Positions 2,208 to 21,518 of a stretch of 64,000 bases of DNA are shown here, piece after piece. The stretch is taken from the NCBI RefSeq assembly GCF_005377625.1, contig NZ_CP040098.1, positions 2,287,501 to 2,351,500 on the forward strand, given 5' to 3'. The notes under the pieces are model-generated. The model was not told where the DNA came from. It ran no database searches and was given only the letters and a program-made list of their open reading frames with translations. The first letter of the stretch is position 1, and the number at the start of each line of letters is the position of its first letter. A program made the translations under genes and the position numbers. The stretch is from Desulfoglaeba alkanexedens ALDC. GTDB lineage: Bacteria > Desulfobacterota > Syntrophobacteria > Syntrophobacterales > DSM-9756.

Positions 2208-2220
2208 CCGGTTGGACTCC

Positions 2221-4998
2221 ATGCCCATAAGACTCGAGCTTCAACGCATTGGAAAGGCGTCCAATTATCTCGGTACGCTGCTGCGAAGCCAGCCGGAATA
2301 TGAAGACTGGCTCTGGAATCGAAAGCAGATCTTTCGCCGCTACCCCCTGACGGAACTCTATGAACACCTGAAAGGACTCATCATCGAAGCCTCCGGCTTC
2401 GAGGATCTGCTCCGGTCCTACCGCAGATTCAAGCAGCTGCATTTTCTGAGAATCGGCGGCCGCGACCTTCTCGGTTGGGCCGACCTGGTGGAAACCACGG
2501 GTCAGTTGAGCGATCTGGCCCACGTGACCCTTCAGGTGGGGCTGGAAACCCTTGTCGGCCACCCCCGGTGGTGGATGCCGCCGGAGCGGGTCGATGCCTG
2601 GCGGGAATCCTGGGACCGCTTGGAATTCGTGGTGATGGGCCTGGGCAAGCTCGGCGGCTACGAACTGAACTACGCCTCGGATGTGGACCTCCTCTTTCTC
2701 TACACCCCGAAGGAAAAGCGCCGGGCGATCCATCCTGACGCACCGTCCGTGCTGAACCCGCTCTGCCAGCACCTGTCTGGGCTCTTGGCCGATGCCGTGG
2801 GAGGGGATCGGGTGTTCCAGGTGGACCTGAGGCTGCGCCCTCAGGGAAAAGACGGCGAACTGGTGCCGTCGCTGATGGCGGCGAGCCAGCACTACCTGCT
2901 GAAGGGGCGGGCCTGGGAGCGGCAGGTTCTTCTGAAGGCGCGGCCGGTGGCCGGGGACCGCGGGCTGGGGACGGCCTTTCTGCAGGAGGTGCGTCCTTTC
3001 GTGTTCCGCCGCTTCCTCGACTTCCAGGCGCTCGACGAACTTCAGGCCATGCGGGACCGGATCCTCGCCGAAGGCCTCAAAGCCGGCCCAGGTGCCGCCT
3101 TTGACGTGAAGCTCGGAGTGGGCGGCATCCGTGAAGTGGAGTTTCTGGTCCAGTCCTTTCAGCTCATCTATGGAGGCCGCCATCCGGAATTGGACGAACC
3201 CAATACCCTGCGCTGTCTCACTCAGCTGGAACGGCTCGGGCTCCTGCCCGAAGATGCGGTGCGGGAGCTCCGGGAAGCCTACACGTTCCTCCGGCGCGTG
3301 GAACACTGGGTACAACTGGATCAGAACCGCCAGACCCAAAGGCTTCCGAAGTCGCCGGAAGGCCGTGAGCGCCTGGCGGAGGCGCTGGGCTTCGAAGGGG
3401 ACTTCGATCGTTTTTTTGAGACCTTGAACGCTCACTGCGAGGTGGTCCACGGCCATTTCACCAGTCTTTTCAGGCCGTCCGAAGATGCCGGGCGGGGTCC
3501 TGAAGCTTTTCGGGAAACCGTGGAAGATTCGGAGGGCGAAGCGGCCGCCCGGGTTCGGGAGGACGTCTCGCGGGCGCTGAAACGGTTGGAACCGGTTCTA
3601 CGCCGTTTTCCGCCGACGTTTCGCGATGTGGTGGCGGAAACCATCGCCGCTCTGGGGGAACGGGCCCGAGAGGACGTCTTCCAGGAGATGGCCGCACGGG
3701 TGGAACGGTACCTGGGCCAAGTGCGGCGCCGTTCGGGCCTGGCGAAGATTTTCGAAGGGGCGGCCCCGTGGGTTCGAACGCTTGTTCAGGCGCTGGCCGT
3801 AAGCGAAATGGTCTCCAATCTCCTGGCTCATCAGCCGAGCCTCGTGGAAGGGGTTTCCGCCTGTGCCGGAGACTGCCCGGACGACGACGCTTGGGAGGTG
3901 TCGTCCCGAAAGATCTTGAAACGGTGCACAACCTACGAAGAATCAGTGGAATGGATCCGGCGGCTCAAGAACGAGCGCCTGCTGATGCTGGCGCTTTCAG
4001 ATCTTGGCGGCCGCCTGGATGCCGAGCGGCTGGAAGAAAGCCTCACCCGCCTGGCCGATTTCGTCATCGTGGAAACGTTCCGTGCGGTCCGGGAAGACGT
4101 GGGGGAAGGCGATGGGCTTCCGCTGGCCATCCTGGGGCTCGGAAAGCTTGGAAGCCGGGAAATGGGCTATCTTTCGGACCTGGATATCATGTTCGTCTAC
4201 GAACCGAAAGAAGGCGAATCGCCGGAGCAGATCCCCGTCCCCGTGGTACGGCTCATCCAGAGGTTCATGCGAATGATCAGTATCCCGCTCCAGGAGGGGC
4301 CGGGGTACGCGGTGGACGCAAGGCTCCGCCCCACGGGGAACTACGGGCCCCTCGTGGTCACGCACAAAGCCTGGTGTGCTTACTACGAGCAGAGGGCCGA
4401 CCTCTGGGAAATCCAAGCGTTGCTTCGGCTTCGAGCCGTGGGCGGGTGGAGGGAACTAGGTCGCGCCCTTGAGGCGAAGGCTCGGGAACTCTGCTTTCAG
4501 CCTCGGGATCCCGGCGAAGTGTGGCCGCGGCTCTGTCACCTGAGGCAACGCATGGAAGGGGAACGGGCGGGGGAGCGTGAGGGGACGGTGAACCTGAAAC
4601 TGGGTTACGGCGGCATGGCGGACCTGGAATTTCTGGTCCAGGGTTTCCAACTGATCCACGGATGGGAAGACCCGGCGCTGCAAGCGTCCGGCGTCAGGCG
4701 AGTGCTGGGAAGAGTGGCCGAAAGGCTGGCGGAAACGGAAGGCGTCACCCCGGGCGCAGGCCCGCTCCTCATGGAAGCCTTCAGTGCCTACCGTGCCCTG
4801 GAACAGCGGCTCCAGCTGTTCGACAATCTTTCGACCCAGCGCCTGACCTCGGAACAGTTCACTTTGCTGAAGGAGCTCGGTCTGTGGCCGCCCCCCGGAG
4901 GGAGCCGCCTGGAAAGCTGGGAAGACCTCCAACGGCTCAGGCGCCGGGTGCGGGAAATCTGGGACGGCGTGTGCGCCGTCTCTCGGCCGGCTTCATGA
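2221..4998 (+). CDS. glnE: Bifunctional glutamine synthetase adenylyltransferase / adenylyl-removing enzyme
   Basis: GlnE adds AMP to and removes it from glutamine synthetase, switching nitrogen assimilation in response to PII and glutamine. The 925-aa product has two nucleotidyltransferase halves. The first has GLGKLGGYELNYASDVD from about residue 141 (Asp154, Asp156); the second has GLGKLGSREMGYLSDLD (Asp653, Asp655). Each is followed by a helical GlnD-type domain. ATG 2221 is chosen; TTG 2212 is an alternative, and the frame is closed at 2200-2202 by the heptamer array. The N-terminus is about 25 residues shorter than that of the E. coli enzyme, and no good ribosome binding site is visible. 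Repeat insertion may therefore have trimmed the natural 5' end. Confidence 0.93.
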   Translation: MPIRLELQRIGKASNYLGTLLRSQPEYEDWLWNRKQIFRRYPLTELYEHLKGLIIEASGFEDLLRSYRRFKQLHFLRIGGRDLLGWADLVETTGQLSDLAHVTLQVGLETLVGHPRWWMPPERVDAWRESWDRLEFVVMGLGKLGGYELNYASDVDLLFLYTPKEKRRAIHPDAPSVLNPLCQHLSGLLADAVGGDRVFQVDLRLRPQGKDGELVPSLMAASQHYLLKGRAWERQVLLKARPVAGDRGLGTAFLQEVRPFVFRRFLDFQALDELQAMRDRILAEGLKAGPGAAFDVKLGVGGIREVEFLVQSFQLIYGGRHPELDEPNTLRCLTQLERLGLLPEDAVRELREAYTFLRRVEHWVQLDQNRQTQRLPKSPEGRERLAEALGFEGDFDRFFETLNAHCEVVHGHFTSLFRPSEDAGRGPEAFRETVEDSEGEAAARVREDVSRALKRLEPVLRRFPPTFRDVVAETIAALGERAREDVFQEMAARVERYLGQVRRRSGLAKIFEGAAPWVRTLVQALAVSEMVSNLLAHQPSLVEGVSACAGDCPDDDAWEVSSRKILKRCTTYEESVEWIRRLKNERLLMLALSDLGGRLDAERLEESLTRLADFVIVETFRAVREDVGEGDGLPLAILGLGKLGSREMGYLSDLDIMFVYEPKEGESPEQIPVPVVRLIQRFMRMISIPLQEGPGYAVDARLRPTGNYGPLVVTHKAWCAYYEQRADLWEIQALLRLRAVGGWRELGRALEAKARELCFQPRDPGEVWPRLCHLRQRMEGERAGEREGTVNLKLGYGGMADLEFLVQGFQLIHGWEDPALQASGVRRVLGRVAERLAETEGVTPGAGPLLMEAFSAYRALEQRLQLFDNLSTQRLTSEQFTLLKELGLWPPPGGSRLESWEDLQRLRRRVREIWDGVCAVSRPAS

Positions 4999-4999
4999 G

Positions 5000-5289
5000 T
5001 ACTTTTTTGTACCCGAAAGGATCTCGTTCCACCTTGTTCCCAAGCTCCGCCATCCACCTTGTTCCCAAGCTCCAGCTTGGGAACACAACTGTGCAGAAGC
5101 TGGAGCTTCCCGGGCAGGCCGTTCCCAAGCCAGAGCTTGGGAACGAGGGGAAACAACCGAACCCCCCGTCTTTCCAGCGAACCTCGGATCGGTGTCCGTG
5201 GCAGGCGTTGGAATCCATTACCTTGCTGCAAAAATCAGTCAGCCCGATTTATTGAGAAGATACTTTTTTGTACCCGAAAGGATCTCGTT
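5000..5289. repeat. 29-bp direct repeats flanking REP cluster B
   Basis: The segment TACTTTTTTGTACCCGAAAG plus ATCTCGTT occurs at 5000-5028 and again, identical, at 5261-5289. Between the copies lies REP cluster B (5029-5154) and about 100 bp of other sequence. Position 5000 is two bases after the glnE stop. The arrangement suggests a 232-bp insertion that duplicated 29 bp. Confidence 0.85.
5029..5154. repeat. REP cluster B
   Basis: Left and right half-elements are joined without a transposase between them: a perfect 24-bp palindrome at 5061-5084, a GAAGCT/AGCTTC hairpin, and an imperfect 24-mer at 5121-5144 followed by GAGGGGAAA. This is a REPIN/MITE-like arrangement. Confidence 0.85.
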
Positions 5290-5374
5290 TGAGCGTGATG
5301 CGGCGTCGGAACTTTGATTTCGGGCGCGTTTCCCTTCGGCCCGGCCCGGTTTTCGGCGTAGGGGAAATTTTTGT

Positions 5375-5402
5375 TTGCTTTTCGAGTCATCTTTGACATA
5401 AT
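5375..5402 (+). promoter_or_regulatory. Predicted sigma-70 promoter of the glutamate synthase operon
   Basis: TTGCTT (5375-5380) and CATAAT (5397-5402) are separated by 16 bp. This is the best promoter-like pair between glnE and the glutamate synthase genes and would give a leader of about 175 nt. Confidence 0.5.
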
Positions 5403-5419
5403 GGTTTACCTGCGACAGC

Positions 5420-5515
5420 GTTTCGTCCTTCCCCAAACAACGACGTTTGGAAAATTCCCCGGACACCGACGTTCGGAAAGGCCCACCGCTTGACGGCTGG
5501 GCTTTTTTTGCCTCT
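5420..5515 (+). promoter_or_regulatory. Structured leader: two look-alike hairpins and a terminator
   Basis: Two similar hairpins lie in tandem, CCAAAC..GTTTGG and CCGGAC..GTTCGG. Each has a CGACGTT motif and is followed by GGAAA. A GC-rich stem GCCCA..TGGGC with an inner CCG/CGG and a run of seven T then follows at about 5485-5512, about 70 bp before the first gene. The layout suggests a conditional terminator controlling the operon. It does not match a riboswitch class I recognise. Confidence 0.5.
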
Positions 5516-5582
5516 TGAGGCTGCGTTTCTCGCTGTCAAAACAAGATTGTTCCACCGAAAAGCACGAAGGAGGCCGCAGGCC

Positions 5583-6716
5583 ATGTGCCGTCTTTTCGCC
5601 GTAACCAGCCAGGAACCTCAGTCGCCCATGATGGCCATCCAGGCCCTGGACGTCATGCGGGAGGGGCATGACGGTTCGGGGGTGGGGCTTTTCCTGAGCG
5701 ATCTGGGGGGACCGTTTGAGGAGTTCAAGGGAGCGCCCGTCCTTTCGGGTATTTTCAGCAATGCCGGGCTGAAGCGCCTGGACCAGTTCATGATGAACAT
5801 CGGGTTCATGACCAAATACAAGCTTTCCATCAAGGTACCTAAGGGGGCGCCGCCCAGTGGGGCGCCGCGGCGGGACATCTACCTCATCCGGGCGTACGAA
5901 TATCCCGAGGAATGGGAGTCGCTCAGCGAAGCCGACATCCGGCACCGCCTGCTCATGATCCGCCTGCAGTTGCGCCAGATGGGTGAAGAAGAAGGCGACA
6001 TGATCGTCTTCAGCTTCTGGCCCGACGTGGTCATGATCAAGGAAATCGGAGATCCCATGTCCGTGGCCGAATACCTGCAGCTTGACCGCAGGGAACTCTA
6101 CGCCCGGATCATCATGGCTCAGGGCCGCCAGAACACCAACTACGCCATCAACCTGTACGCCTGCCATCCTTTTTTCATCCAGGGGGTGGCGAGCATGACC
6201 AACGGGGAGAACACGGCCTTCATCCCCATCCGGGAATTCCTCGAGTCGCGCGGATTTCCGGGCTACATGGGTTATCAGTCGGATTCGGAAGTCTTCACGC
6301 ACATTCTTCATTACACGATTTACAGGCTGGGGCTGGGGATCGAAGCGTACAAGCACATCATCACACCGCTGCAGGACCCGGACCTGGAGAAGCATCCCAA
6401 CGGCGCGTTTCTGAAGCAGGTCAAGCACAGTTGTCGGCGGCTCATCATCGACGGGCCCAACTGTGTGATCGGCTGCCTCCCGGACAAGTCGGTGTTTATG
6501 GTTCAGGACCGCAAGAAGCTGCGCCCGGGCGTGGTGGGTGGAAAACCGGGGCTTTATGCCTTTTCCTCGGAAATCTGCGGCCTTGACGCCGCCATCCCCG
6601 ACCGCGACAAGAGCAAGGATTTTCAGCCCATGCATCTGGACACGGCCGTCATCGGGCCGCAGCGCCGGGAGGTTACCCTATGGTCACAAACGGATTCATT
6701 GCCCCTTCTTCACTGA
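5583..6716 (+). CDS. Glutamate synthase glutaminase subunit (archaeal-type, class II amidotransferase)
   Basis: This 377-aa protein is the amidotransferase part of a split glutamate synthase. It releases ammonia from glutamine for the FMN subunit encoded next. The start at 5583 is set by the Met-Cys pair: Cys2 becomes the N-terminal nucleophile after Met removal, in MCRLFAVTSQ, and AAGGAGG lies 9 bases upstream. The G-H-D-G-S-G-V-G-L motif (EGHDGSGVGL) near residue 30 is typical of class II amidotransferases. The 3' end overlaps the next gene by 37 bp, implying translational coupling. Confidence 0.9.
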   Translation: MCRLFAVTSQEPQSPMMAIQALDVMREGHDGSGVGLFLSDLGGPFEEFKGAPVLSGIFSNAGLKRLDQFMMNIGFMTKYKLSIKVPKGAPPSGAPRRDIYLIRAYEYPEEWESLSEADIRHRLLMIRLQLRQMGEEEGDMIVFSFWPDVVMIKEIGDPMSVAEYLQLDRRELYARIIMAQGRQNTNYAINLYACHPFFIQGVASMTNGENTAFIPIREFLESRGFPGYMGYQSDSEVFTHILHYTIYRLGLGIEAYKHIITPLQDPDLEKHPNGAFLKQVKHSCRRLIIDGPNCVIGCLPDKSVFMVQDRKKLRPGVVGGKPGLYAFSSEICGLDAAIPDRDKSKDFQPMHLDTAVIGPQRREVTLWSQTDSLPLLH

Positions 6717-8314
6717 GCGTGAAGGATCTTCCCTGGCAGGTACACTGGAGCCGGGACCGGTGCACCTTGTGCGGGCGGTGCACGGCGGTCTGTCCTGTGC
6801 ACGCTATCGAACTGGCCGTATTCCGTAAGCGCGCCGTCCAGCCCGTGCTCGGCCTCAAGGAACCTCCAAGCAGCCTTTTTCAGGTCTTCTACGGCATCCG
6901 CCAGAAGACCGACCCGGCCTACGCTTGCATCGGGTGCGCCATGTGCACCATGGTGTGTCCCAACGAAGCCATCATACCGGTCCGTTCCGACGAAGCGGAC
7001 AAGCTCCGTTACCACGTGAACCGTGGCGGCCAGCCGAGGCGCCGGGGCGGACGCCGGAACATGCCCGACGGTGTGCTGGACCGGATCAAGTTCACCCGCA
7101 TTTCCATGCTCACCGACCCGGCTCTCGACGCGGGGCGCCACGAGTTCGAGCTGCGGACGCTGCTGGGTCGCATCCTGCCGCCCGAGGACAGCCTTCAGCT
7201 GCTCAAGGACGAGGGGTGGATTCCGCCGGTTCGTGAGATCTACCCGCTGATCATCGGCGGGATGTCCTTCGGGGCGCTTTCGCCCAACATGTGGGAAGGG
7301 CTCCAGATGGGGGTGGCGTACCTGAACGAGGAACTGGGGATGCCGGTGCGGATGTGCACGGGCGAAGGCGGCTGCCCGCCGCGCCTTCTCCGGTCCCGTT
7401 TCCTGAAATACGTGATCCTCCAGATCGCCAGCGGTTACTTCGGCTGGGACGAAATCATCCACGCGCTTCCGGAAATGAAGGAAGACCCGTGCGCGGTGGA
7501 GATCAAGTACGGCCAGGGCGCCAAGCCAGGCGACGGCGGGCTCCTCATGTGGTACAAGGTGAACCAACTCATTGCGGCTATCCGCGGGGTTCCGTCCGGG
7601 GTGAGTCTTCCCAGTCCGCCCACTCACCAGACCATGTATTCCATCGAGGAAGCGGTCGCCAAGATGATTCAGTCCATGTCCATGGCGTGGGGTTTTCGCG
7701 TCCCGGTCTACCCCAAGATTTCAGGGACGTCCACGGCGCTCGCGGTGCTGAACAACCTCACCCGGAATCCCTACGCGGCGGGACTGGCCATCGACGGCGA
7801 AGACGGTGGAACGGGCGCGGCCTACAACGTGTCTTTGGACCACATGGGCCACCCCATCGCCAGCAACCTCCGGGATTGCTACCTGAACCTGGTGAAACTG
7901 GGAAAACAGAACGAGCTGCCGCTTTTCGCCGGGGGCGGCATCGGGAAGCGCGGCAACCTGGCCGCCAATGCGGCGGCCCTCATCATGCTGGGGGCAAGTG
8001 GGGTGCAGATCGGAAAATACATCATGCAGGCGGCGGCCGGTTGCGTGGGGTCCGAATCGGACCGCTGCAATGTCTGCAACATCGGGATCTGTCCCAAGGG
8101 AATCACGTCCCAGGATCCGCGGCTTTACCGGCGGCTCGACCCCGAACTGGTGGCCGAGCGGGTGGTGGACGTGTTCTTGGCCTTCGATACGGAATTCAAA
8201 AAGATCGTGGCGCCGCTCGGACGGTCCACGTCGCTTCCTATCGGCATGTCCGACGCGCTGGGCGTGGACGATCGCAACATTGCGGAAAGACTTCAAATCC
8301 GATACGTGGTTTGA
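6680..8314 (+). CDS. gltB: Glutamate synthase FMN-binding central subunit with N-terminal ferredoxin domain
   Basis: This 544-aa protein transfers ammonia to 2-oxoglutarate to make glutamate, using electrons passed through iron-sulfur clusters. Residues 28-38 (CTLCGRCTAVC) and about 82-93 (CIGCAMCTMVC) form two [4Fe-4S] sites. The middle is the FMN-binding TIM barrel, with GGMSFGALS and the GEDGGTGAA motif. Cysteines in CNVCNIGICPKGITSQDP near residue 463 match the position of the [3Fe-4S] site of classical GltB. This domain-split form is common in archaea and anaerobic bacteria. It shares an operon with both neighbours. Confidence 0.92.
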   Translation: MVTNGFIAPSSLSVKDLPWQVHWSRDRCTLCGRCTAVCPVHAIELAVFRKRAVQPVLGLKEPPSSLFQVFYGIRQKTDPAYACIGCAMCTMVCPNEAIIPVRSDEADKLRYHVNRGGQPRRRGGRRNMPDGVLDRIKFTRISMLTDPALDAGRHEFELRTLLGRILPPEDSLQLLKDEGWIPPVREIYPLIIGGMSFGALSPNMWEGLQMGVAYLNEELGMPVRMCTGEGGCPPRLLRSRFLKYVILQIASGYFGWDEIIHALPEMKEDPCAVEIKYGQGAKPGDGGLLMWYKVNQLIAAIRGVPSGVSLPSPPTHQTMYSIEEAVAKMIQSMSMAWGFRVPVYPKISGTSTALAVLNNLTRNPYAAGLAIDGEDGGTGAAYNVSLDHMGHPIASNLRDCYLNLVKLGKQNELPLFAGGGIGKRGNLAANAAALIMLGASGVQIGKYIMQAAAGCVGSESDRCNVCNIGICPKGITSQDPRLYRRLDPELVAERVVDVFLAFDTEFKKIVAPLGRSTSLPIGMSDALGVDDRNIAERLQIRYVV

Positions 8315-8330
8315 TCTCGTGGCGGAAAAA

Positions 8331-10721
8331 ATGAAACAGGGCGGAGTCCCTCCGAGGCATAAGATGACAAACAGTGGTGGTTCCACGGAACAGGCTTTCC
8401 AGAAATCCTATTGGGTGGCCGGCAAGGAGAACGGTCGCCGTCTCGATTCGCGAATCCTTGAGGAACGGATTCAGCAGGCCGTGGCTGAGGGGCATCGGGC
8501 GCTGGAGGTGGAGGCCTTCGGGCAGCACGGCATCGGCGGGCGGCTGTGGCGTGCCGGAGACGAACCGGTCAAGGTGGTGGTCCATGGATCTCCCGGGCAG
8601 CGCCTGGGTTCCATGGGTTTTCCCAATACGCAGATCGAGGCTCTGGGCCCCGCTTCCGACGACGTGGGCTGGCTGAATGCGGGGGCGGAAATCGTCGTCC
8701 ACGGAAACGCCGGAAACGGCGTGGCCAACGCCATGGCTCAGGGGAAGGTTTTCATCGCCGGAAACATCGGCGCCCGCGGCATGACCATGACCAAGCACAA
8801 TCCGCGGTTCGACCCTCCGGAACTTTGGGTGCTGGGTTCCGCCGGCGATTACTTCGCCGAATTCATGGCGGGGGGGATCGCGGTGATCTGCGGGTACAAC
8901 CCCCAGAACGCCGAAAACGTGCTGGGCTACCGTCCCTGTGTGGGGATGGTGGGGGGGAAGATCTTCTTTCGAGGTCCCCACGGAGGCTACAGCCGTACGG
9001 ATGCCAAATCCATCCCTCTTTCCGACGACGACTGGCATTGGCTCGCGAAAAACCTGCAGGTCTTCCTGGAACGGATCGGCCGGAGCGAGCTCTTCCCCCA
9101 GTTTGCCGATCGGGCCGTCTGGCAGCTGCTGAAGGCCCGAATGCCGAGCGAAAAACGCGCCGGTCCCCGGCGCGCCATGGGCGATTTCCGGAAAGACATC
9201 TGGGACGGGGAACTGGGCCGGGGGGGCCTTATCGGTGATTTGACCGACCTGGACCGGAGTCCTGTGCCGGTCATTACCACCGGCGCACTGCGGCGGTTCG
9301 TTCCGGTTTGGGAAAACCGGAAATATGCGGCTCCCTGCGAAGCCGCCTGCCCCACGGGCATCCCGGTCCACGAACGCTGGCGGCTCATCCGCGAAGGCCG
9401 TGTGGACGAGGCTGTGGACCTGGCCCTTGCCTACACGCCCTTTCCCGCCACGATCTGCGGGTACCTGTGTCCGAATCTGTGCATGCAGTCGTGCACCCGG
9501 CGGTCTTTCAACATGGCTCCCGTGGATGTGACGCAACTGGGCAGGGCGAGCCTCAAGGCTTCGCTTCCCGAACTGCCGCCGCTTTCCGGAAGGAGAGTGG
9601 CCGTGGTCGGAGGCGGACCGGCGGGGCTTTCCGTGGCGTGGCAGCTCCGGCGTGCGGGCCATGAAGCGGTGGTCTACGACCGGGAATCGACGCTCGGCGG
9701 TAAGATTTCCAGCGTCATCCCGAAGACTCGGATTCCGGAAGGCGTGGCGGAAGCGGAACTGGAACGCATCCGCAAGGTCCTTCCCCATGTCCACCTGCAG
9801 CAGGACGTCACCCGCGAAGATCTGGAGCAGCTCAAGGCGGACTTCGACTTCGTCGTGATTGCGACGGGCGCACAGAAACCCCGGCTGCTTCCTGTTCCCG
9901 GAAAGGAACGACTCATCCCGGCGGGCGATTTCCTCAAAGAAAGCAAAGCCGGAAAGGCCAAGGTCGGAACGCGGGTCGTGGTCATCGGAGCCGGCAACGT
10001 GGGCTGCGATGTGGCCACGGAGGCCCACCGGCTGGGCGCCGAAGAAATCACGCTGATCGACATCCAGGAGCCGGCGTCGTTCGGCCGGGAACGCAAGGGC
10101 GCAGAGGCCGCCGGAGCTCATTTTCTTTGGCCGGTCTTCACAAAGGCCGTGACTTCGAAAGGCGTGGAACTCACTTCCGGCGAAACGATTCCCGCCGATA
10201 CGGTGATCGTTGCCATCGGCGATGCACCGGATTTGGAGTTTCTACCGGAGACCGTGGAAACGGACCGGGGGTTCATCGTGGTCGATGAAAACGGCCGGAC
10301 CTCCGATCCAAAGATCTTCGCCGTCGGCGATGTAGTCCGCCTTGGACTGCTCACGGACGCGGTGGGAGCCGGCCGCCGGGCGGCCCTAGCCATCGATGAT
10401 CTCCTTTCGGGCCGGCGTCCGACCCGGGAAAGCCGAAAGATCATCGACGTTTCACGCGTGAAGCTCGAATACTTCGATCCTCGGAACCTGCGGTTCGAAG
10501 GCTTGGAACAATGCGCCGGTGAATGCGCATCCTGCGGGTCTTGCCGGGATTGCGGCATCTGCATCGCCATCTGTCCCAATGCCGCCATTTCTAAAAAGGA
10601 AAACGGAAGCGGGGACTTCGAGATGGTGGTGGACGACGACCGATGCATCGGATGCGGCTTCTGCGCCGGCGCGTGCCCGTGCGGTATCTGGGACCTGGTG
10701 GAAAACGAGCCGCTCGGCTGA
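8331..10721 (+). CDS. Fusion: GltB C-terminal (GXGXG) domain + GltD-like oxidoreductase + ferredoxin
   Basis: This 796-aa protein joins three parts of the glutamate synthase machine. Residues about 20-270 are the GXGXG beta-helix domain of GltB (repeated glycine spacing, e.g. GQHGIGGRLW, GNAGNGVANAM). Residues about 336-420 carry the GltD N-terminal cluster cysteines (CEAACPTGIP, CGYLCPNLCMQSC). FAD and NAD(P)H sites follow: VAVVGGGPAGLS at about 423 and VVVIGAGNVGCD at about 550. The C-terminus is a 2[4Fe-4S] ferredoxin (CASCGSCRDCGIC from about 731; CIGCGFCAGACP at about 772). ATG 8331 is used; ATG 8364, with GAGG six bases upstream, is equally possible. It likely supplies reducing power to the FMN subunit. 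Confidence 0.88.
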   Translation: MKQGGVPPRHKMTNSGGSTEQAFQKSYWVAGKENGRRLDSRILEERIQQAVAEGHRALEVEAFGQHGIGGRLWRAGDEPVKVVVHGSPGQRLGSMGFPNTQIEALGPASDDVGWLNAGAEIVVHGNAGNGVANAMAQGKVFIAGNIGARGMTMTKHNPRFDPPELWVLGSAGDYFAEFMAGGIAVICGYNPQNAENVLGYRPCVGMVGGKIFFRGPHGGYSRTDAKSIPLSDDDWHWLAKNLQVFLERIGRSELFPQFADRAVWQLLKARMPSEKRAGPRRAMGDFRKDIWDGELGRGGLIGDLTDLDRSPVPVITTGALRRFVPVWENRKYAAPCEAACPTGIPVHERWRLIREGRVDEAVDLALAYTPFPATICGYLCPNLCMQSCTRRSFNMAPVDVTQLGRASLKASLPELPPLSGRRVAVVGGGPAGLSVAWQLRRAGHEAVVYDRESTLGGKISSVIPKTRIPEGVAEAELERIRKVLPHVHLQQDVTREDLEQLKADFDFVVIATGAQKPRLLPVPGKERLIPAGDFLKESKAGKAKVGTRVVVIGAGNVGCDVATEAHRLGAEEITLIDIQEPASFGRERKGAEAAGAHFLWPVFTKAVTSKGVELTSGETIPADTVIVAIGDAPDLEFLPETVETDRGFIVVDENGRTSDPKIFAVGDVVRLGLLTDAVGAGRRAALAIDDLLSGRRPTRESRKIIDVSRVKLEYFDPRNLRFEGLEQCAGECASCGSCRDCGICIAICPNAAISKKENGSGDFEMVVDDDRCIGCGFCAGACPCGIWDLVENEPLG

Positions 10722-19334: not shown

Positions 19335-21518
19335 CGTGCTCCGTCCCGCCAGCCGTTCGGCGAGCAGCGTGAACCGCTTTTGGGTCCTGTCGTTCCGTAC
19401 GGCCATGGCCAACGCCTTCCGGGTCCCCACGATCACGACCAGTTTGCGGCCGCGGGTGACGGCCGTGTACAGCAGGTTGCGCTGGAGCATCATGTAGTGC
19501 TGGGGGTGAAGCGGCAGCACCACCGCCGGGTACTCGCTCCCCTGGGACTTGTGCACGGTCACGGCGTAGGCGTGGACCAGTTCCTCAACTTCGGAAAAAT
19601 CGTAGGCGACGGGCCGCCCGTCCACGGCCACGGTGAGTTCCTGTTCTTCCAGGTCCACCTTCAGGATTCGGCCCAAGTCGCCGTTGAAGACGTCTTTGTC
19701 GTAGTTGTTTCGGATCTGCATCACCTTGTCGCCTTGGCGGTAGAGGCGGTCCCCGCGTTGGATGGCGGTCCCGGAAGGGTTCAGCGCCTGCTGGAGGTCG
19801 CGGTTGAGGCGTTGGGCTCCCACGGTCCCGCGGTGCATGGGGGTGAGGATCTGCACGTCGTCGATGGGGTCAAGGCCGAATCGGGACGGGATCCGTTCGG
19901 TGCAGAGTCTGACGATGACGTTCAGGGCTTCTTCCGGGTTTTCTTTTTCGATGAAATAGAAATCCTGGAGCCCTTCGGAATCGTCCTGGAAAAGGGGCAT
20001 GCGTCCGTCTCGGATGCGGTGGGCGTTGACCACGATGCGGCTCCGGCGGGCCTGGCGGAAGATTTCGGTGAGGCGTACCACGGGAAAGACCCCGGATCGG
20101 ATGAGGTCCTGGAGGACGTTTCCCGGACCGACGGAAGGCAGTTGGTCCACGTCGCCCACGAACACCAGGGTGGCATGGGCAGGGACGGCCTTCACCAGGT
20201 GGTGAGCCAGAAGGCCGTCCAGCATGGAAGCTTCATCGATGACGACCAGATCCGCGTTCAGGGGCTTTTCTTCGTGGCGCTGAAAGCCCCCGGCGTGCGG
20301 GCTGAATTCCAGAAGGCGGTGGATGGTTGCGGCCGGGTGTCCGGTGGCTTCGTTCAGCCGTTTGGCGGCCCGGCCTGTAGGGGCGGCCAGGCAGACCCGG
20401 GCGTTCATGGTGCGGTAGGCGGCGAGAACGGCTCGGACCAGCGTGGTTTTGCCGGTTCCGGGACCGCCCGTGATGATGAGCACCCGGTCGGTGAGGGCCC
20501 TCTTTACGGCTTCTTCCTGGCTGGGGGCCAGGCGGAAGGGCAGGCGGCCATGGAGTCTTGAAAGGGCCTGGTCGGGGTCCACGCGCCGGGGCGGCAACGG
20601 GTAGTCGAGAAGCTGCCTGAGGCGCAGCGCGGTCTGCACTTCAGCCGTATGGTATCCTTTGAGGTAAAGGGCGAAGGAATCGGCGAAGGTTTCCGCGACG
20701 GCCGGGGGGAGGGTTTCGCGGAAGACGCGCCGATCTTCAATGAGGTGCGTGACGGCGCCTTCCAGCGTTTCGGCGGAGATGTTCAGCAATTCCCGGCCCT
20801 TTTCCAGAAGGAGACCCTGGGGCAGGCAGAAATGCCCTTCTTCGGTCGCCCTGAAAAGCAGGTAGAGGATTCCGGCTTCGGCTCGAACGGGCGAATCCGT
20901 TTCGAAGCCGAGGGCCCGGGCGATCTTGTCCGCCGTTACGAACCCGATGCCCGTGATGTCCATGGCGAGGCGATAAGGATTTTGCCGGACCACATCGAGT
21001 GAATCCCGCCCGTAGGTCTTGAAAATCCGGGTGGCGAAGGCGGCGCTCACACCGTGGCTCCTCAGAAACACCATGACCTGCCGGATTTCCTTCTGGTCTT
21101 CCCACGCCTTGCGGATCCGTTCGATGCGGTACGGCCCGATCCCTTCCACTTCCAGAAGTCGTTCGATGTCGGCGTCGATGACATCGAGGGTGTGTTCGCC
21201 GAAACAGGCGACGATGCGTCGGGCCATCACCGGTCCGATGCCCTTGATCAGGCCGGAACCCAGGTACTTTTCAATCCCGTCGGCTGTGGCGGGGGTCAGG
21301 GTTTCGTAGCGTTCCACCTGGAACTGCTCGCCATGGCGCGGGTGATGGCCCCAGCGGCCTTCCAGCCGGAGCGATTCGCCCGGGTTTACGGACACGAAGG
21401 TGCCCACCACGGTGACCGGATCCCGCCGGCCGGGAACGCGGAAGCGAAGGACGCTGAAGCCGTTTTCTTGGTTGGTGTAGGTGACCCGGTCCACCTGGCC
21501 GGTGAGTTCTTCCGCCAT
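19329..21518 (-). CDS. recD2: RecD2-type DNA helicase (RecD/TraA family)
   Basis: This 729-aa superfamily 1B helicase moves 5' to 3' on single-stranded DNA and acts in repair outside RecBCD. It has the long N-terminal region that separates RecD2 from RecD: an OB-like start and helix-hairpin-helix motifs (GIGPVMARRIV, EVEGIGPYRIERI). Walker A is ITGGPGTGKTT near residue 352, Walker B is LVVIDEASM, and VHKSQGSEYPAV marks motif V/VI. ATG 21518 is preferred to TTG 21551. Its 3' end sits in a heptamer microsatellite. Confidence 0.93.
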   Translation of the reverse strand: MAEELTGQVDRVTYTNQENGFSVLRFRVPGRRDPVTVVGTFVSVNPGESLRLEGRWGHHPRHGEQFQVERYETLTPATADGIEKYLGSGLIKGIGPVMARRIVACFGEHTLDVIDADIERLLEVEGIGPYRIERIRKAWEDQKEIRQVMVFLRSHGVSAAFATRIFKTYGRDSLDVVRQNPYRLAMDITGIGFVTADKIARALGFETDSPVRAEAGILYLLFRATEEGHFCLPQGLLLEKGRELLNISAETLEGAVTHLIEDRRVFRETLPPAVAETFADSFALYLKGYHTAEVQTALRLRQLLDYPLPPRRVDPDQALSRLHGRLPFRLAPSQEEAVKRALTDRVLIITGGPGTGKTTLVRAVLAAYRTMNARVCLAAPTGRAAKRLNEATGHPAATIHRLLEFSPHAGGFQRHEEKPLNADLVVIDEASMLDGLLAHHLVKAVPAHATLVFVGDVDQLPSVGPGNVLQDLIRSGVFPVVRLTEIFRQARRSRIVVNAHRIRDGRMPLFQDDSEGLQDFYFIEKENPEEALNVIVRLCTERIPSRFGLDPIDDVQILTPMHRGTVGAQRLNRDLQQALNPSGTAIQRGDRLYRQGDKVMQIRNNYDKDVFNGDLGRILKVDLEEQELTVAVDGRPVAYDFSEVEELVHAYAVTVHKSQGSEYPAVVLPLHPQHYMMLQRNLLYTAVTRGRKLVVIVGTRKALAMAVRNDRTQKRFTLLAERLAGRSTH

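Follow-up and report, generated by a model that had tools for sequence, protein, structure and literature searches.

Glutamate synthase locus and leader anatomy

The stretch of DNA analysed here (64 kb; referred to throughout as the window) carries a split glutamate synthase operon that is preceded by a leader at positions 5375-5582. The following features were assigned; the evidence used for each is given in brackets.

5375..5402, + strand: candidate sigma-70-type promoter, TTGCTT-16-CATAAT (sequence; leaders of relatives)
5433..5450, + strand: hairpin P1, CCAAAC[AACGAC]GTTTGG, hexaloop with A1/G4 (sequence, fold, covariation)
5451..5458, + strand: linker between P1 and P2, 8 nt (sequence)
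5459..5476, + strand: hairpin P2, CCGGAC[ACCGAC]GTTCGG, hexaloop with A1/G4 (sequence, fold, covariation)
5477..5509, + strand: intrinsic terminator AAAGGCCCACCGCTTGACGGCTGGGCTTTTTTT, 0 nt after P2, with a seven-T tract (fold)
5567..5573, + strand: Shine-Dalgarno-like AAGGAGG (sequence)
5583..6716, + strand: first gene, GATase (amidotransferase) part of the split glutamate synthase, MCRLFAVTS... (ORF; Pfam)
6680..8314, + strand: FMN/Glu_synthase subunit with N-terminal 4Fe-4S domains (PF01645, E 4e-57)
8319..10721, + strand: GXGXG domain fused to a GltD-like NAD(P)-binding oxidoreductase and ferredoxin domains (PF01493, PF07992); the start position is provisional

The downstream genes were assigned by Pfam matches to a glutamate synthase with split genes, as had been read from the sequence beforehand; the GATase_6 match of the first gene, which was matched in 45 of 59 genomes, was sub-threshold. 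By eye, the upstream gene (window 2212-4998) is glnE-like, and the ORF beside it on the minus strand (730-1968) resembles a mutator-type (IS256) transposase. TACTTTTTTGTACCCGAAAGGATCTCGTT is present twice (4998-5035 and 5258-5290) in the interval that separates the glnE-like gene from the gltB promoter. The palindromic repeat TTCCCAAGCTCCAGCTTGGGAAC, located at 5035-5150, is a very abundant REP-like element in the whole genome; with up to 2 mismatches, 442 forward and 438 reverse matches were counted versus 0 for the reversed control, the forward and reverse matches overlapping because the repeat is a near-palindrome.

Two near-identical hairpins followed by a terminator had been described in the sequence-only reading, and were confirmed by sequence and fold. 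The helices of P1, P2 and the terminator are all contained in the minimum-energy fold of the leader, the top two pairs of each hairpin are C-G over A-U, and the predicted pair probability of P2 is 0.97 with the terminator sequence present. The folding energy alone is mildly unusual (z ∼ -2) and is a weak signal. The dual A1/G4 hexaloop was scanned for on both strands of the window (stems of at least 5 bp, linker 3-20 nt) and occurred once; the mean for 20 Markov surrogates, used as control, was 0.45 at stem 5 and 0.10 at stem 6. By these surrogates a chance origin is improbable, which is not decisive alone; it is the conservation described below that really excludes chance. Exact matches to MCGACGTTYGGAAA in the genome were limited to the two copies in the gltB leader, and one-mismatch matches to this literal motif numbered 8, about as many as with the reversed-pattern control.

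The sigma-70-like promoter proposed earlier is plausible, with TTGACA at the -35 place in the leaders of most relatives (among the eight family leaders, G002 is without a clear TTGACA), but its own hexamers are off consensus. A consensus scan of the window for promoters and terminators found none at this locus, owing to strict hexamer rules and to a bulge in the terminator stem, and this outcome was given no weight. The Shine-Dalgarno sequence is located ∼57 nt past the terminator and, in the predicted fold, pairs with neither P1 nor P2.

Conservation, class assignment and co-occurrence with an ANTAR protein

Conservation and covariation were looked for in the leaders of relatives, and both were present. 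P1, P2 and the terminator precede split gltB in all eight genomes of the window's family (f1), and P1 starts 128-150 nt 5′ of gltB. Two-sided compensatory changes were found in 4 of 13 pairs of the eight-genome alignment, in which 99 % of cells were paired; when the partner was slid by one column as a control, paired cells fell to 55 % or less. The closing C-G and the next A-U pair are invariant in both hairpins of these genomes. Across relatives, the near-constant features of the loops are limited to A1, G4 and the closing pairs; G002 alone of the eight family leaders has G1 instead of A1 in loop 2. The two hairpins could instead be read as a direct repeat in the DNA that is bound by a transcription factor; since relatives differ in the stems by compensatory changes, this reading was rejected.

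Covariance model R1 was built from the eight family leaders, which therefore match by construction (60.7-75.6 bits); the next match among the 59 genomes scored 30.1 bits. A plain pattern identified this leader in six of the eight family genomes, with no other match in any of the eight, and missed the leaders of G002 and G006 because their letters differ. In two genomes from another family of the class (G041 and G045), the gltB leader has a P2 of this kind and a P1 that is imperfect.

In the sequence-only reading no described element of this form was known, a statement that has to be withdrawn, since the leader fits the published ANTAR-target motif, namely dual hexaloop hairpins before a terminator (Ramesh 2012, PMC3369931). 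The eutP mutations described in that report show the importance of both hairpins, of the closing pairs and of A1 and G4 in each loop; linkers of 5-12 nt are natural in eut, and linkers of 3 and 14 nt fail (PMC3369931). In the window, both hairpins of the leader reach the 3-bp minimum and carry 6-nt loops (AACGAC, ACCGAC) that start with A and have G as their fourth base; the closing pairs are constant, the lower stem covaries, and the linker, at 8 nt, is inside the functional range. An ANTAR protein is encoded in the same genome (one PF03861 match, E 2.3e-20). Mutual exclusion of P2 and terminator was not found in the minimum-energy fold, in which the two abut and share no nucleotide; in the account of Ramesh 2012, overlap of the terminator with P2 defines the attenuation model and not every ANTAR substrate (PMC3369931). 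Judged from its sequence, the gltB leader is thus an ANTAR-target RNA of a known kind, and elements before glutamate synthase genes have already been published. This membership is based on the loop rule, conservation and co-occurrence more than on the covariance model R2 described below.

PF03861 matches were obtained in 23 of the 59 genomes; each of the eight family genomes has a single one. Leaders were covered in 39 of the 45 gltB genomes, which left out G030, G032, G035, G036, G038 and G049; the leader of G022 comprised 122 nt only. The dual element was present before gltB in 8 of 17 ANTAR-positive versus 0 of 22 ANTAR-negative genomes (Fisher p 4e-4, kinship between genomes ignored), and in 10 of 17 versus 0 of 22 when G041 and G045, with a good P2 and an imperfect P1, were counted. 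Seven of the 17 ANTAR-positive genomes have no such element in the gltB leader, and two more have the imperfect P1 only. The ANTAR-negative genome G053 (75 % complete), whose one loose dual match has a linker of 2 nt and lacks a terminator, was counted as absent.

Linkage to glutamate genes was also found at the regulator loci. Among the best 80 named GAF-ANTAR loci, a glutamate gene lies just 3′ of the GAF-ANTAR gene in 40 (glutamate synthase-like, 35; GDH, 4; glutamine synthetase, 1) and starts 147-810 nt after it; the downstream genes were checked by Pfam on four representatives, and for six of the 80 loci the available downstream sequence is shorter than 700 nt. A dual A1/G4 element was detected between the two genes in 17 of these 40 loci by an automatic rule, and in more by eye. 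Close GAF-ANTAR relatives were also noticed in Candidatus Solincola (Actinomycetota) and Aerophobota (L217, L174, L182 and L209), and those at L217 and L174 sit before glutamate synthase-like or GDH genes.

Model R2 was constructed from 15 of 18 regulator-adjacent elements (three were missed by the extraction rule) and contains no sequence of the window's family. Its alignment shows two-sided changes in 7 of 12 pairs (15 elements), independent of the covariation within the family. In 40 whole genomes, R2 elements at E<0.005 were found in 11 of 12 ANTAR-positive and 1 of 28 ANTAR-negative genomes; the exception, G034, is 88 % complete and belongs to the same genus as the ANTAR-positive G037. 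A glutamate synthase-like or GDH gene follows eleven of the 12 elements; the twelfth runs off its contig. On the window, the gltB element ranked best with R2 but was recognised weakly (16.8 bits, E 0.007; E 0.38 on the genome scale). The other strong match in the window (19686-19740, minus strand, 15.3 bits) lies in coding-like sequence and was taken as chance. Applied to 27 leader loci, R2 found five of nine gltB elements and missed four, and 0 of the 18 element-free loci scored above 10 bits.

Of the ligand- or protein-controlled attenuation suggested earlier, control by a protein is well supported by the conserved and covarying leader, by the ANTAR protein in every genome with the full element and by the linkage of the protein family to glutamate genes; a ligand (riboswitch) is not needed.

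The NAD synthetase-GAF-ANTAR protein and a second leader

The gene for the ANTAR protein (G000:C1:455975-457420; L049:7976-9421) is located outside the window, ∼1.8 Mb from gltB, and by eye follows a lepB-like gene. The 481-residue product consists of an NAD synthetase domain (residues 9-233), a GAF domain (278-413) and the ANTAR domain at the C-terminus (426-476). Residues 9-233 match PF02540 (E 2.8e-68) as well as solved NadE chains, such as 3fiu_A, and the P-loop SGGIDS and the PSAGLWEGQTDE motif are intact. In the relatives panel, seven of 12 fused proteins retain the catalytic P-loop and the PSAGLWxGQTDE motif and five have lost them, and the GAF-ANTAR part is highly conserved in fused proteins.

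The NAD synthetase part is present in seven of the best 80 named GAF-ANTAR loci, among them those of Desulfacinum infernum DSM 9756 and D. hydrothermale DSM 13146; the other 73 are open frames of ∼230-350 residues without this part. A GAF-ANTAR tree was calculated from 85 of 102 proteins, after fragments and rows without the anchor motif had been dropped and with all 19 fused rows kept. Since all fused proteins form one group in this tree (support 100/99), the simplest history would be that the NAD synthetase was fused once, in Syntrophobacterales. In view of the close relatives in Candidatus Solincola and Aerophobota, the GAF-ANTAR/glutamate unit may possibly have been transferred horizontally as a whole. 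No report of a NadE-ANTAR fusion was found in the open-licence literature at the level of titles and abstracts.

A second NAD synthetase is encoded elsewhere in the window genome (open frame of 594 aa, G000:C1:2281945-2282688), so the fused domain is not the sole one and may serve as a sensor; loss of the motifs in five of 12 genomes likewise suggests a sensory role. We infer that the fused NAD synthetase domain may be a sensor. An AlphaFold model of the D. hydrothermale orthologue (seven rows) had a mean pLDDT of 57, with the GAF part below 50, and at such low values supports nothing. The second, larger NAD synthetase (the open frame of 594 aa) lies ∼11 kb upstream of gltB in the window genome, and on the same contig as gltB in the Desulfacinum genomes G003, G005 and G007.

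A second element was found in the window genome with R2 (G000:C1:1044111-1044165), ∼68 nt before a PF01645 (glutamate synthase-like) gene. P2 of this leader and of its counterparts is embedded in the terminator, with a P2 pair probability of 0.00 in nine of nine leaders, whereas P2 of the gltB leaders is predicted to co-form with the terminator (pair probability 0.76-1.00 in ten of ten). The terminator starts 0 nt after P2 in nine of the ten gltB leaders and 3 nt after it in G002; the spacing in G005, whose best fold differs, was judged by sequence. The layout of the second leader is that published for ANTAR targets, and the gltB leader is unlike it. As far as the predicted folds can be relied on, the geometry of the gltB leader is in tension with the published mutual-exclusion step.

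Proposed mechanism and comparison with known ANTAR systems

Very probably, the gltB leader is an ANTAR target at which the fused ANTAR protein lets RNA polymerase read into the split glutamate synthase operon. Transcription would start near 5410, P1 and P2 would form as the RNA emerges, and in the default state the polymerase would be stopped by the terminator (5477-5509). The single ANTAR protein, presumably activated by a nitrogen- or NAD-related signal, would bind the hexaloops and keep the abutting terminator from closing, and with the terminator kept open the operon would be expressed. The second glutamate synthase-like gene, at ∼1,044 kb, would be controlled by the same protein. The constant zero spacing suggests that protein bound to P2 would hinder the terminator sterically, at its lower A-U pairs. 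The predicted folds show no competition between P2 and the terminator, so a steric block at the P2/terminator junction appears more likely than textbook refolding. A further-reaching version, in which an NAD synthetase captured once would sense the state of nitrogen or NAD precursors with its ammonia/ATP/deamido-NAD pocket and adjust glutamate synthase expression by way of GAF-ANTAR, the gltB terminator being blocked in a second mode of action and not refolded, is offered tentatively and is rather doubtful as a whole.

Tandem similar hairpins before a terminator could also form a tandem metabolite riboswitch that needs no protein, for example of the guanidine-II type, whose motif has ACGR loops; ACGA is indeed contained in the P1 loop. 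The loop core is, however, not ACGR in P2 or in relatives, where near-constancy is limited to A1, G4 and the closing pairs, the element co-occurs with the ANTAR protein, and a search of the window against Rfam families, riboswitches included, gave 0 matches at gathering score. With no Rfam match and no conserved loop core, guanidine-II or another riboswitch was rejected and is considered highly improbable.

The main rival is a decoy role resembling that of EutX, in which the terminated leader would titrate the ANTAR protein and gltB would be expressed by basal read-through or from another promoter. There is precedent in EutX/Rli55, which are described as titrating EutV (PMC8934654), and as P2 is predicted to form with or without the terminator, both binding sites would be left on the terminated RNA. 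Nevertheless, the element is placed directly in the gltB leader in eight of eight genomes, and classical attenuators before glutamate genes are found with the same protein family, so that one regulon fits better; we regard a decoy as unlikely. Somewhat less probable still is that the same RNA and protein act in the opposite direction, binding either stabilising termination (repression) or acting on translation. The predicted fold allows end-to-end stacking of P2 and the terminator, which would suit such a role, but the characterised attenuation ANTARs AmiR, NasR and EutV are activators (PMC3369931), and the distance and unpaired state of the Shine-Dalgarno sequence speak against an effect on translation.

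With antitermination by the fused protein as the preferred reading, the analysis points to the probable regulator and the probable targets of a circuit for glutamate synthesis that is spread over many sulfate reducers and syntrophs. The window genome would place two leader geometries under a single protein, which provides a direct test ground for the mutual-exclusion model of ANTAR regulation, and the decay of an enzyme-derived candidate sensor domain can be traced in relatives. Desulfacinum infernum and D. hydrothermale are cultured type strains that carry the fused protein.

GnfR of Geobacter sulfurreducens, from a related lineage, is an ANTAR-type antiterminator of nitrogen genes, and gnfR is described as encoding a nitrogen-fixation response regulator. 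Whereas GnfR is a phosphorelay response regulator, the protein of the window genome shows no receiver domain and carries NAD synthetase and GAF domains instead. Like the NH3-dependent NAD synthetase NadE, this protein has intact catalytic motifs; unlike NadE, it is fused to GAF-ANTAR. As far as the targets of EutV (eut), NasR (nasF) and AmiR (amiE) are described in the work cited, the window leader shares with them two short hairpins, A1/G4 hexaloops and AC/GU closing pairs, as well as the 8-nt linker, an intrinsic terminator, a nitrogen gene on the 3′ side and an encoded ANTAR protein. ANTAR elements of the same motif are reported from other lineages: those of Desulfotomaculum reducens precede glutamate synthase genes, a target of the same type as here, and those of Pelobacter carbinolicus precede nif genes (PMC3369931). 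In eutP, P2 is described as embedded in the terminator (PMC8934654), whereas P2 of the window leader abuts the terminator at 0 nt and is predicted to co-form with it. What is unusual is this abutting geometry of P2 and terminator, together with the NAD synthetase fusion of the regulator.
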